Assembly: GCF_022809125.1 (NCBI RefSeq)
Contig: NZ_JALGBI010000001.1
Location: 1,550,001 to 1,614,000, forward strand
Reading direction: 5' to 3'
DNA: 64,000 nucleotides
Source: Variovorax terrae
Lineage (GTDB): Bacteria > Pseudomonadota > Gammaproteobacteria > Burkholderiales > Burkholderiaceae_C
Shown here: in pieces, positions 4,287-58,052 of the stretch
Layout of the letters: each line of letters begins with the position of its first letter
Position numbering within the stretch: position 1 is the first letter of the stretch
Position numbers and translations under genes: made by a program
The notes under the pieces: model-generated
Seen by the model: only the letters and a program-made list of their open reading frames with translations
What the model was told of the DNA's origin: nothing
Database searches by the model: none

Positions 4287-5062
4287 CGTCCGAGGCCACC
4301 GTCCACATCAGTTCGCGCGACAACGCGCTGGTCAAGGAACTGCGCCGCCTGTCGCAGGACAGCACCGCCTACCGCAAGCTCGGCCGGGTCTGGCTCGAAG
4401 GCGACCACCTGTGCCGCGCGGCGCTGTCGCGCGGCTGGAAACCGTCCCTGGCCGTCTTTTCGGAGTCATTCTGGCCCGAGGTCCCCGTCGAATGGACGCG
4501 CGCTGCTATCAAAAACATAGTGATCGCGGAGGCCCTGCTACCCGAGATCAGCGGGTTGGAGTCGCCCGCGCGCATGGGCTTCGTGCTCGACCTGCCGGGC
4601 GCGCCGGCGCTGGCGCCCGGCGCGCCCTCCGTGATCCTCGACCGGGTGCAGGACGCCGGCAACGTGGGCTCCATCCTGCGCAGTGCGGCGGCCTTCGGTT
4701 TTCGTCAGGTGCTCGCGCTCAAGGGCACGGCCGCGCTGTGGAGCCCGAAGGTGCTGCGCGCCGGCATGGGGGCGCACTTCGGCCTGCAACTGCTGGAGGG
4801 GCTGGAGCCGGTGGCGCTGGAAGCGCTGGCTGTGCCCATCATCGTGACCAGCTCTCACCAGGGCGCGCTGATCCAGCAGCAGGTGCTGCCCGATCCCTGC
4901 GCCTGGGCCCTGGGGCACGAAGGGCAGGGCGTGGGTGCCGAACTGGCAGCGCGCGCCGGCCTGGCGGTGCGCATCGGCCAGCCCGGCGGCGAAGAGTCGC
5001 TCAACGTGGCCGCCGCGGCCGCGATCTGCCTGCACGCCAGCGCCATCGGGCGCCCGCGCTGA
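4283..5062 (+). CDS. TrmH/SpoU-family rRNA 2'-O-methyltransferase
   Basis: SPOUT-class methyltransferase of 259 residues. The N-terminal substrate-binding domain (about 1-100) starts with [14 protein letters not shown] and contains the EGDHL segment. The C-terminal knotted SAM-binding domain shows the three SpoU motifs: [20 protein letters not shown], the ALGHEGQGV loop, and the final [16 protein letters not shown]. These indicate 2'-O-methylation of a ribosomal or transfer RNA; the exact target cannot be read from sequence (23S rRNA is the usual annotation). The gene overlaps rnhB by four bases and closes the lpx operon. Residues around AAIKNIVIA are encoded by a family A repeat, in a variable linker. 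Confidence 0.87.
4454..4522 (-). repeat. Family A dispersed repeat, copy 1, inside the TrmH-type gene
   Basis: Degenerate copy in reverse orientation. The AT core GCTATCAAAAACATAG lies at 4505-4520 and the GGTCC/GGCC/TTTT flank precedes it. It is translated in frame as part of the methyltransferase linker. Confidence 0.6.
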
Positions 5063-5084
5063 CGCTGCGCCATGGGCCCTGGCT

Positions 5085-5138
5085 CCCAGGGGAAAAGCCG
5101 CAGTCGGCTATAATCAGGGGCTTTCCCGCAAACCCCTG
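5085..5138 (+). promoter_or_regulatory. Probable carAB promoter and start of leader
   Basis: A perfect -10 hexamer TATAAT sits at 5109-5114 in GGCTATAATCAGG; no convincing -35 was found about 17 bases upstream. Transcription from here would give a leader of about 120 bases before carA. The leader opens with an inverted repeat CAGGGG...CCCCTG (5115-5138). No leader peptide or known pyrimidine attenuator could be recognised. Confidence 0.55.
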
Positions 5139-5238
5139 TACGCCTAGCGCATTCAAGCCACCTCCCTCACAAAAGCAGCCATCGAGAGTCTCCTCTTGAG
5201 CGCGTTTGGGCGTACCCGCTAACCATTCGGAGAACCCA

Positions 5239-6411
5239 GTGCTTTTGTCTCAACAGGGAACCATCCCCCACGCCATCCTGGCGCTTGCAGACGGCACGGT
5301 CTTTCTCGGCGATTCGATCGGAGCCACCGGCTCCACCGTGGGTGAAGTGGTGTTCAACACCGCGATCACCGGCTACCAGGAAATCCTCACCGACCCCAGC
5401 TACTGCCAGCAGATCGTGACGCTCACGTATCCGCACATCGGCAACTACGGCGTCAACGAGGAAGACATCGAAGCTGAAAAAGTCCATGCCGCCGGGCTGA
5501 TCATCAAGGATCTGCCGCTGCTCGCGTCCAACTTCCGCATGACCCTGACCCTGTCCGAGTACCTGGTCCGGGAAAAGACGGTGGCCATCGCCAACATCGA
5601 CACGCGCAAGCTCACGCGCCTGCTGCGCACCAAAGGCGCGCAGAACGGCGCCATCGTCGGCCTCGCCGCGGGCCAGGCCGTGACCCAGGCGGTGATCGAC
5701 CAGGCCGTGGCTGCGGCCCAGGCCGCGCCCAGCATGGCCGGGCTGGACCTGGCCAAGGTGGTGTCGGTTGCACAGCCCTACGACTGGACCCAGACCGAGT
5801 GGCAGCTCGGTGCCGGCTACGGCACGCAGGCCGCGCCGAAGTTCCATGTGGTGGCCTACGACTACGGCGTCAAGAAGAACATCCTGCGCATGCTCAGCTC
5901 GCGCGGTTGCAAGGTCACCGTGGTGCCGGCGCAGACGCCGGCCGCCGAGGTGCTCAAGCTGCGGCCCGACGGCATCTTCCTGTCCAACGGCCCCGGCGAC
6001 CCGGAGCCCTGCGACTACGCGATCAGCGCCACGCGCGAACTGATCGAGACCGGCATCCCGACCTTCGGCATCTGCCTGGGCCACCAGATCATGGCGCTGG
6101 CCTCGGGCGCCAGCACCTTCAAGATGAAGTTCGGCCACCACGGCGCCAACCACCCGGTGAAAGACCTCGACAACGGCCGCGTCAGCATCACCAGCCAGAA
6201 CCACGGCTTCGCGGTCGACGAGAAGACCCTGCCCGCCAATCTGCGTGCCACCCACGTCAGCCTGTTCGACAACACGCTGCAGGGCCTGGCCCGCACCGAC
6301 CGGCCCGCGTTCTGCTTCCAGGGTCACCCGGAAGCCTCGCCCGGCCCGCACGACATCGGCTATCTGTTCGACCGCTTCACGGCGCTCATGGAGAAACACA
6401 AGAATGCCTAA
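5239..6411 (+). CDS. carA: Carbamoyl-phosphate synthase small subunit
   Basis: Glutaminase subunit that supplies ammonia to CarB for carbamoyl phosphate, the precursor of arginine and pyrimidines. The 390-residue product (E. coli 382) has the N-terminal CPSase_sm domain and a C-terminal class I amidotransferase domain with the nucleophile Cys in [10 protein letters not shown] and the His/Glu pair in [11 protein letters not shown] at 5239 is chosen because GGAGA at 5229-5233 is well spaced before it; a TTG at 5206 in frame lacks support. The last eight bases overlap carB. Confidence 0.96.
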
Positions 6412-57257: not shown

Positions 57258-57350
57258 ACACCCCCAGGCTGCGCTTCGCTGCGCCTCCCCCCTTGCAGGG
57301 GGCGACACCCGCGGCCCGGCAAAGCCGGTTCCGCGGTGTCCGCACGAAAG
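57258..57350 (+). repeat. Family B REP-like element, copy 2, between ybaB and recR
   Basis: CCCCCTTGCAGGGGG hairpin followed by GACACCCGCGGCCCGG, CAAAGCCGG and CCGCGGTGTC, which fold back on one another. It matches the copy between pstB and phoU over most of its length. Confidence 0.75.
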
Positions 57351-57378
57351 CCTGTGGCCGTGATGGGCTTGATCCGCC

Positions 57379-57969
57379 ATGTCTAACGCCAATTCCCTCG
57401 ACGCGCTGATCCAGGCGCTGCGGCGCCTGCCTGGCGTGGGGGTGAAGTCGGCCTCGCGCATGGCGTTCCACCTGCTGCAGCACGACCGCGAGGGCGCGCT
57501 GCACCTGTCGCAGGCGCTGCGGCAGGCCACCGACAGCGTGCGGCACTGCGCGCTGTGCCACACCTTCACCGAGGCCGAGGTCTGCGTTACCTGCCTGGAC
57601 CCGCAGCGCGATGCGGCCAAGCTGTGCGTGGTGGAGACGCCGGCCGACCAGTCGGCGGTGGAGCGCACTGCCGCCTACAAGGGCCGCTACTTCGTGCTGA
57701 TGGGCAAGCTCAGCCCGCTGGACGGCATCGGCCCCAAGGACATCGGCCTGCAGAAGCTGTTCGACCGCGCGACCGACGGCGTGGTCCAGGAAGTGATCCT
57801 GGCCACCAACTTCACGGCCGAAGGCGAGGCCACCGCGCACGTGATCGGCGAGGCGCTGAGAAGCCGCGGCCTGCAGGTCACGCGGCTGGCGCGCGGCGTG
57901 CCCGTGGGCAGCGAGCTGGAGTACGTGGACCTCGGCACCATCGCGCATGCGCTGGTCGATCGGCGCTAA
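57379..57969 (+). CDS. recR: Recombination mediator RecR
   Basis: 196 residues (E. coli 201): N-terminal helix-hairpin-helix [20 protein letters not shown], a four-Cys zinc finger ([16 protein letters not shown]), a Toprim domain opening [14 protein letters not shown], and a C-terminal Walker-B-like strand region. With RecO and RecF it loads RecA on gapped DNA. A family B repeat lies between ybaB and this gene. Confidence 0.96.
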
Positions 57970-57996
57970 GGCCACGCGCGGGGCGGCAGAAAATTC

Positions 57997-58052
57997 TGCT
58001 ACAGTTTTGATAGCTGCCGGCGTCCACAGCGTGCGGACCTCCGGCACGAAAC
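57997..58052 (+). repeat. Family A dispersed repeat, copy 13, between recR and the MAPEG gene
   Basis: Forward copy: GCTACAGTTTTGATAGCTGC, GGCGTCCACAGCGTGCGGAC, CTCCGGCACGAAACC. Intergenic, immediately before the MAPEG start. Confidence 0.7.

Follow-up and report, generated by a model that had tools for sequence, protein, structure and literature searches.

A dispersed DNA signal of about 60 bp that forms dialects at shared positions in Comamonadaceae genomes

Short repeats with an AT-rich palindrome recur, inside genes and between them, in a 64,000-nucleotide stretch of the Variovorax terrae genome (the window; C1:1550001-1614000 of the 4.93 Mb study genome, which is in five contigs). We found that these repeats are copies of a double-stranded DNA signal that is position-specific, lies in place, is under constraint and forms dialects: related genomes carry it at largely shared positions, each in its own dialect, and the set evolves in concert. 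The signal is very probably a recognition tag and not a mobile insertion, because its dialect differs from lineage to lineage while the gene positions that bear it stay the same, as would be expected of a tag spelled by mutation and not of a jumping element. The whole claim, in which such an in-place signal would also serve DNA transfer and spread by a drive like that of uptake sequences, we hold at a probability of roughly 0.45.

Cores of the form GCTAT-N7-ATAGC with at most one mismatch occurred 8 times in the window against 0.4 expected, and cores with a spacer of 6 or 8 gave 0 and 1 matches there, no excess. The initial annotation had described this palindrome with 6-8 A/T-rich bases in its centre. 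Iterated nhmmer searches from 8 hand-picked seeds yielded 12 window matches, all with E of 2.6e-7 or better. The annotation had proposed that a profile built from half of the copies should recover the others; in 20 random splits, six-copy profiles recovered 2-5 of the 6 held-out copies (E<0.01), and 4 of 6 in 11 splits, with no match beyond the 12 copies, these having been chosen with a profile so that the splits are not fully independent. A search of the study genome with the 12-copy, sequence-only profile, as had been suggested, returned at least 150 matches, all with E<3e-6 and the window copies among them. At 12 bits or more, this profile found 225 sites in 1.654 Mb of genome DNA and none in a Markov-4 shuffle. 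The family is real and large: 207 copies reached 16 bits in 1.654 Mb of C1, and a Markov-4 shuffle of equal length peaked near 11 bits (maximum 11.2-11.9). The density is about 125 copies per Mb, which by extrapolation would give some 620 copies in the whole genome.

When the 207 copies were aligned on the core, information spanned positions ~1-65 and then ended, giving a signal of ~55-65 bp. After a palindromic core, GCTAY-N7-RTAGC with an AT-rich centre, positions 24-29 form a second block, 39-42 a box and 47-50 a further, GGCC-like box, while AT-tracts occupy 52-55 and 62-65. The box at 39-42 reads GGAC in the study genome versus GGGC in two Rhodoferax genomes and keeps its register across dialects. 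Positions C3 T4, A16 G17 C18, C28 C29 and G39 G40 A41 C42 are near-invariant (95-100%), in a set chosen by score that excludes copies below 16 bits, a threshold that itself favours such positions; positions 20-21 and 32-33 are nearly random. We saw no covariation between the palindrome arms in the study-genome copies: Watson-Crick pairing was 0.63 at 5-15 (0.67 expected) and 0.52 at 6-14 (0.52 expected). Invariant positions beside random ones, together with arms that do not covary, argue for a double-stranded site read by a protein and against a hairpin or an evenly decaying repeat. The alternative offered in the annotation, a recurring structural signal, is thus right in its first half; the signal recurs, and it is sequence-specific rather than structural, since the sides of the palindrome do not covary. 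Between relatives, the change rate was 0.144 at consensus positions, 0.217 in the flanks and 0.365 at variable positions (27 pairs, 21 elements), with consensus positions changing less than the flank in 23 of the 27 pairs. In this comparison the consensus positions were defined on independent copies from one of the Rhodoferax genomes (G040), and the pairs share loci and so are not fully independent.

Genes were predicted with a simple purpose-written caller, which called ~90% of the DNA coding and missed at least one likely open reading frame (ORF; 35338-36726). By these calls, 95 of the 207 copies lie inside genes, where 84% of random 65-mers would fall; 56 extend across a gene end (9% for random 65-mers), and the other 56, many of them in short gaps, are intergenic (6%). 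As the annotation had reported, copies occur in both orientations and are read through in frame, in the window and across the genome. In-gene copies are 49 sense and 46 antisense, with no difference between the two in relative position within genes (P=0.72), and the frame preference is strong, one frame serving 36 of the 49 sense and 39 of the 46 antisense copies. Read from the sequence, the consensus carries stops in its other sense frames. Copies are fewer in GC-poor stretches, counts rising with GC (rho 0.37). The contigs C4 and C5 together (104 kb) hold 2 copies against 13.0 expected (P=0.0002); with the GC trend, this would fit a bias towards the core genome, acquired status being judged from GC and contig only.

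Dialects at shared gene positions

We compared the positions of copies with those in two Rhodoferax genomes, G040 and G041, which carry 155 and 175 copies per Mb. In-gene copies of the study genome with an aligned ortholog had a copy within 8 nt in 16 of 19 cases in G040 and 4 of 6 in G041; residues picked at random from these genes gave 6.3%. Orientation was the same in all 20 shared pairs and the register differed by 0-8 nt; one site (736690), where the nearest G040 copy is 66 nt away, was counted as absent. In the reverse direction, the study genome matched 21 of 39 copies from G040 and 7 of 18 from G041.

Outside the core, the consensus differs between these genomes. The study genome has ..ATAGCa..c.AtGaCCgc..gaC..GGAC.Tc.GgCc..Ttt, G040 has ..TAGCT.cttgCGCa...t..ACGgGGGCTAgaGgcc.attT and G041 has ..aTAGCTact.GCcCtTtatc.AtAaGGGCTAGAGgcc.Attt. 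In a three-way leave-one-out test restricted to positions outside the core, 205 of 206 study-genome copies (anchoring failed for the remaining one of the 207), 91 of 99 G040 copies and 31 of 35 G041 copies were assigned to their home genome, and the G040 and G041 misassignments fell between those two genomes only. At all 20 shared sites the study-genome copy scored best in its own dialect and the partner copy in the dialect of its genome, with the pairs agreeing at 9-19 of 32 bases outside the core. Each genome therefore has its own dialect at largely shared positions: the places are old, their spelling has changed at all of them together, and the set has evolved in concert.

A profile in the study-genome dialect was also run against 80 dnaX loci of relatives; in its first round 2 of them reached 14 bits, and in later ones 1. 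The bare core gave 47 exact matches in these loci, every one with a spacer of 7 bases, versus 3 in shuffles. With a profile made from the 47, 102-112 copies of at least 16 bits were found in ~40 loci, with 0-2 in the shuffle at 10 bits. The near-failure of the first profile thus reflects a change of dialect and not an absence of signal. Across 40 genomes, a model of the study-genome dialect (132 candidates scored per genome) matched 7, its own included. We find lineage dialects around a shared minimal core, as is expected of uptake sequences.

We then counted exact cores with an AT-rich centre, and the reversed pattern, in all 13 genomes examined. Counts (cores/reversed) were 320/4 in the study genome, 301/1 in G040, 56/1 in G041, 43/4 in G042, 25/2 in Curvibacter, 241/6 in Acidovorax facilis, 222/1 in Paracidovorax anthurii, 283/3 in G050, 390/5 in G051, 3/0 in Ramlibacter monticola, 13/2 in Variovorax, 3/1 in Caenimonas and 1/7 in Limnohabitans. 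The expectation that such sequences are widespread in Comamonadaceae was borne out: 48 of 150 family genomes, the study genome included, have at least 20 exact cores, with up to 604, and the other 102 have at most 14. An order-wide search took in 160 genomes, and none of the 156 from other families has more than 9. A profile designated R2 gave an all-or-none result in 12 genomes, six with at least 148-150 among the matches listed and six with zero. Paracidovorax has zero by this profile yet 222 cores, and G287 has 1 core yet 11 motifs of a type reported from Polaromonas (below), so a zero count can mean another dialect and the exact core is not itself dialect-proof.

A possible transfer signal or chromosomal binding site

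The closest analogue is the DNA uptake sequences (DUS) of Neisseriaceae and the uptake signal sequences (USS) of Pasteurellaceae, with their dialects. The accessible portions of the papers on these (PMC3630211, PMC2397512, PMC1939737, PMC1626085) describe many copies on both strands, in genes and between them; a gap-alignment test headed by the statement that USS are not insertions; dialects in line with phylogeny, frames limited by stops, conservation of the signals amid more permissive sequence and a bias towards permissive sites in the core genome; and AT-rich segments beside the USS core. So far as those portions go, the signal described here is like DUS and USS in its over-representation on both strands, in-place origin, dialects, stop-limited frames and AT-rich segments beside the core. 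To our knowledge, only uptake sequences have this set of features, including the concerted evolution of hundreds of dispersed in-gene sites.

By this analogy, a trans-acting DNA-binding protein would read the signal and co-evolve with it, copies would accumulate in existing coding and intergenic sequence through substitutions and small indels, and DNA with the right dialect would preferentially be taken up, or otherwise transferred, and recombined. The process would be the molecular drive proposed for DUS and USS. Slightly more tentative is the idea that Comamonadaceae have a self-DNA recognition system, in which the ~60 bp dialect signal, recombination-driven drive and a putative protein reader would together tell self from foreign or foreign-dialect DNA. 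If true, this large and mostly environmental family would offer a second, very different test case for selfish drive versus selection for self-recognition, and for dialect shifts. The signal itself explains some variable linkers and odd local protein sequence, as in DnaX, AddA, MutL, NadE and ComEC, as the imprint of a signal at the DNA level.

Several observations weigh against a transfer signal of this kind. We know of no uptake sequence that it does not exceed several-fold in length: at ~55-65 bp and degenerate, it differs from the 9-12 bp, near-invariant core of DUS and USS, being about five times longer, and it is much sparser (~125 per Mb) and occurs in another taxonomic family. In the part of PMC2397512 that could be consulted, many new DUS are said to arise via recombination and not point mutation. 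No receptor was found. All 13 genomes have ComEC, whether or not they carry the signal, and 12 of the 13 have GspH/FimT-type pilins, so that genomes with and without the signal are not told apart by their competence genes. DUS are biased towards genome-maintenance and repair genes. Of the 90 signal-bearing genes here, 6 cross locus borders and 84 could be scanned; among the first 40 of these, in map order with pepN skipped, only PriA has a clear DNA-maintenance function. A repair-gene bias is not established for this signal, because there was no background set and mutL, addA, addB, dnaX and comEC were met singly. Intergenic and gene-end copies with a syntenic gene pair were matched in only 5 of 11 cases, and the spacing of copies is close to random (coefficient of variation 0.89, P=0.055). 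Points of the same kind that concern length and similarity are given below with insertion.

The main and serious rival, which we regard as rather less likely than not to be correct, is that the copies are sites of a dedicated nucleoid-associated or chromosome-organising protein, spanning about six turns of DNA and kept by direct selection while the protein co-evolves. The position independence of the signal, like that of a position weight matrix and free of pairing covariation, its constrained consensus positions, its chromosome-wide spread with few copies on C4, and conserved blocks that by eye recur at steps of ~10-14 bp would all suit such a site, which would then be unusually long and fast-evolving. 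However, a large set of sites is expected to freeze the sequence that is recognised, and here dialects differ between genera at the same loci. Presence is also patchy, counts elsewhere in the family falling close to zero in other genera, and the orientation pattern of segregation-type sites is lacking beyond a weak strand bias of 119:88 (P=0.037); tests of replication strand and even spacing gave weak results only.

Fragments of the family are already in print as unexplained motifs. In the accessible text of a 2017 paper (PMC5217627), ATAGCT(N)22CAAAAG is reported from Polaromonas naphthalenivorans in 125 copies (101 intergenic, 18 in genes, 6 at gene ends), GCTTAT(N)5AAGCG from Acidovorax ebreus, and 140 motif pairs from Rhodoferax ferrireducens, as potential novel motifs. 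The first of these is in register with signal positions 14-19 and 42-47. It has matches in 28 of 150 family genomes, several with a like interior, e.g. TTGCGCTTGT..GGGCGC. One A. facilis copy (L129:13452) has a middle part similar to the A. ebreus motif. As far as that text goes, these are pairs of short words, mostly intergenic, and it makes no mention of a complete element, of dialects, of orthologous positions or of an origin within genes. We found no description of the full signal and its dialects in the open-licence literature that could be consulted, subscription papers lying outside that search. A further known repeat, the Beta-proteobacterial repeat element (BRE), is described in the available part of PMC3110155 from Bordetella and Comamonadaceae, with some copies in coding sequence, as ~90 bp long, 69% GC in Bordetella, often tandem (a variable number tandem repeat) and present in 1-29 copies per genome. 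By that description, the signal is set apart from BRE by its length of ~65 bp, its GC content and its non-tandem arrangement, with 1 of 206 spacings below 250 bp.

In-place origin against insertion

A decayed or active miniature mobile element, whether a miniature inverted-repeat transposable element (MITE), a Rickettsia palindromic element (RPE) or a repetitive extragenic palindrome (REP) mobilised by a REP-associated tyrosine transposase (RAYT), is an improbable source of the family. An old, decaying miniature element was the explanation that the annotation had placed first, and it did not survive the comparison of relatives: copies lie at orthologous positions with a genome-specific consensus and retain positions at 95-100%. 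The comparison of genes with and without a copy, which had been proposed as a check, revealed no 65-base insertion at any of 17 discordant sites; the signal-bearing side was 0 nt longer in 9 and 12-36 nt longer in 8, and random control sites showed zero length difference in 90% of cases. Small indels thus accompany some copy gains, all of them well short of 65 nt. The mutL copy lies over ALAAINSIAELALLSRTSGQSSAF, after the GFRGE motif, and the protein aligns without gaps to solved MutL chains up to the edge of the copy; in nadE and pepN, gaps over the copy were of at most 3 residues in the PDB chain alignments shown. Copies that overlie alignable MutL, NadE and PepN sequence, together with the absence of a unit-length insertion, disfavour insertion in the manner of a MITE or RPE. 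At the first firm addA site, 6 relatives with the copy have 96 nt between the anchors and 17 without it have 93-120 nt, one of them 222; four of these 17 (L129, L131, L155, L157) resemble diverged copies by eye.

Other observations lean towards a mobile element. The copies do form a repeat family with a palindrome and are read in frame inside genes, as RPEs are. All 8 of the non-zero length differences (12-36 nt) favour the signal-bearing side, and at the second addA site the length is 111-150 nt in relatives with the copy and tends to be shorter, 81-135 nt, in those without it. Pairs of at least 80% identity number 81 in the study genome versus 2.9 in column shuffles, and 17 versus 1.5 in G040. 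An excess of similar pairs exists, reflecting some relatedness by copying or uneven copy strength; in the study genome most of these pairs link copies close to the consensus, which form one loose cluster of 37. Pointing the other way, no pair exceeded 82% identity among 99 G040 copies or 78% among 35 G041 copies, close to the column-shuffled maxima of 80% and 76%. Direct repeats across the flanks of 206 copies were in slight excess (5-mers 65 vs 46, 6-mers 19 vs 11), which leans towards an element, but flank repeats of 4-6 bases had no consistent length of the kind left by target-site duplication.

Six near-identical copies in the study genome, which on their own would suit a mobile element, are the inverted ends of three ~700 bp units lying between convergent genes at C1:83.5-84.3 kb, 1239.4-1240.1 kb and 1623.5-1624.2 kb (L035, L104/L105 and L121). 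The interior of these units has a TTTCTTTGCTTCGCCAAAGAAAAGTAAGC-type inverted repeat and no convincing ORF was seen; in 2 kb around one unit, no Rfam family exceeded its gathering score. These units are a repeat in their own right, of which the signal is a part.

Insertion of the MITE or Rickettsia type was rejected as a candidate, there being no unit-length gain, alignable host sequence and no fixed target duplication. RPEs and MITEs resemble the signal in being short repeats read in frame inside genes, and by the accessible account in PMC10969869 they are integrated units of ~150 bp, whereas the signal comes without an insertion-sized change of length. The REP/RAYT system was rejected as well. 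It shares dispersed short palindromic repeats and a Y1_Tnp gene in the genome, but the copies do not flank that gene: in 3.3 kb around the only Y1_Tnp gene, three profiles found no copy at E<=100. Nor does its presence track the signal, Y1_Tnp being found in 13 of 13 genomes. This single RAYT-like gene (L203, C2:424512-424838) lies beside inverted words, GGGTCAGATTC and GAATCTGACCC, that are unrelated to the signal. A mobile element would also leave the concerted dialects at shared loci unaccounted for, and we return to a recognition signal spelled in place as the better reading.

An RNA-level structure (terminator, attenuator or stable hairpin) or a DNA cruciform would fit the palindromic core, the GCCCTTTAT..ATAAGGGC arm of the G041 dialect and the enrichment in convergent gaps (23 of 56 intergenic copies vs a 27% length share, P=0.02), but it is highly improbable, as the lack of pairing covariation argues against a hairpin or cruciform, sense and antisense use in genes is near equal, and no Rfam family exceeded its gathering score at the window copies.

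Copies in the window and neighbouring features

Bit scores of window copies come from the model trained on 1.654 Mb of the study genome unless stated. Ten copies are firm (19.7-46.5 bits). Among those that the annotation had listed, one at 29152 proved borderline, and the MATE copy and one addA copy weak. Its gene identities hold by Pfam (SpoU/TrmH, DUF4149, MIP aquaporin, MatE, PD-(D/E)XK nuclease and UvrD helicase).

The first firm copy, absent from the annotation, is antisense and in frame in lpxB (2555-3697, plus strand; Pfam LpxB), at 3174..3238 on the minus strand with 19.8 bits. Further antisense copies lie in the SpoU/TrmH gene (4283-5062, plus) at 4458..4522, minus strand (28.2 bits), in the DUF4149 gene (10286-10705, plus) at 10473..10537, minus strand (40.6 bits), and in the aquaporin gene (16673-17389, minus) at 17108..17172, plus strand (38.7 bits). 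Between a minus-strand ORF and the divergent phoX (Pfam PhoX), an intergenic copy occupies 18366..18430 on the plus strand (39.7 bits). The borderline copy, 29152..29216 on the plus strand, coincides with the predicted start of a gene for a periplasmic binding protein (27965-29182, minus; Pfam Peripla_BP_6); it scored 12.6 bits in the genome-trained model versus 34.8 in the window model, which had this copy among its seeds. The MATE gene (36671-38017, minus) has a degenerate copy at 37025..37072, plus strand (9.4 bits), which we did not count.

In addB (42061-44667, plus), there is an antisense copy at 43106..43170 on the minus strand (19.7 bits); the ortholog could be aligned in 17 relatives, none of which has a copy there. 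The addA gene (44664-47900, plus) holds two firm copies. The first, 46648..46712 on the plus strand (29.5 bits), is sense in the rarer frame, with GAG in place of the consensus stop codon TAG, and 6 of the 23 relatives whose ortholog could be aligned share it in position; the second, 47371..47435 on the minus strand, is antisense (36.0 bits) and is shared by 8 of 22 relatives. A weak seed copy in addA, 44953..45016 on the minus strand, scored 8.6 bits (over 44966-45013) versus 30.6 in the window model built from it and the other seeds, and was not counted. The strongest copy, 46.5 bits, is antisense in dnaX (55039-56910, plus) at 56348..56412 on the minus strand, directly before the IPVR codons. 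Of 81 aligned loci, 39 have a copy at the corresponding position with its orientation unchanged, a count in which one genome appears twice (as G040 and L128). The last is intergenic, after recR (Pfam RecR), at 57997..58061 on the plus strand (33.5 bits).

A copy that had been placed over a start codon at 42026-42075 is not a member, at 6.3 bits. A different palindrome, GCTATGAATGAGATAGC, lies across the addB start codon at 42058-42074, and like palindromes (GCTATG...ATAGC) lie on the addB start or immediately ahead of it in L124, L126, L129, L155, L157, L164, L180, L181 and L187. These include Ramlibacter and Variovorax loci, from genera with little or no signal, and the palindrome may be a conserved regulatory site of addAB.

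Elsewhere in the study genome, comEC (C1:1200898-1203300, L103) itself bears a sense copy, at 1202067. Sense copies at gene starts (L035 ~1307, L048 ~10616, L061 ~13622, L084 ~18300 and L119 ~5241) encode what by eye look like signal peptide-like stretches, e.g. AIKTIAALALLAGTSAAF. The lower-GC contig C4 (101 kb, 62% GC; L236-L240), with its 2 signal copies, may be a plasmid or an acquired replicon. Within the window, the minus strand at 54809-54905 carries a bacterial small signal recognition particle RNA (Rfam RF00169).

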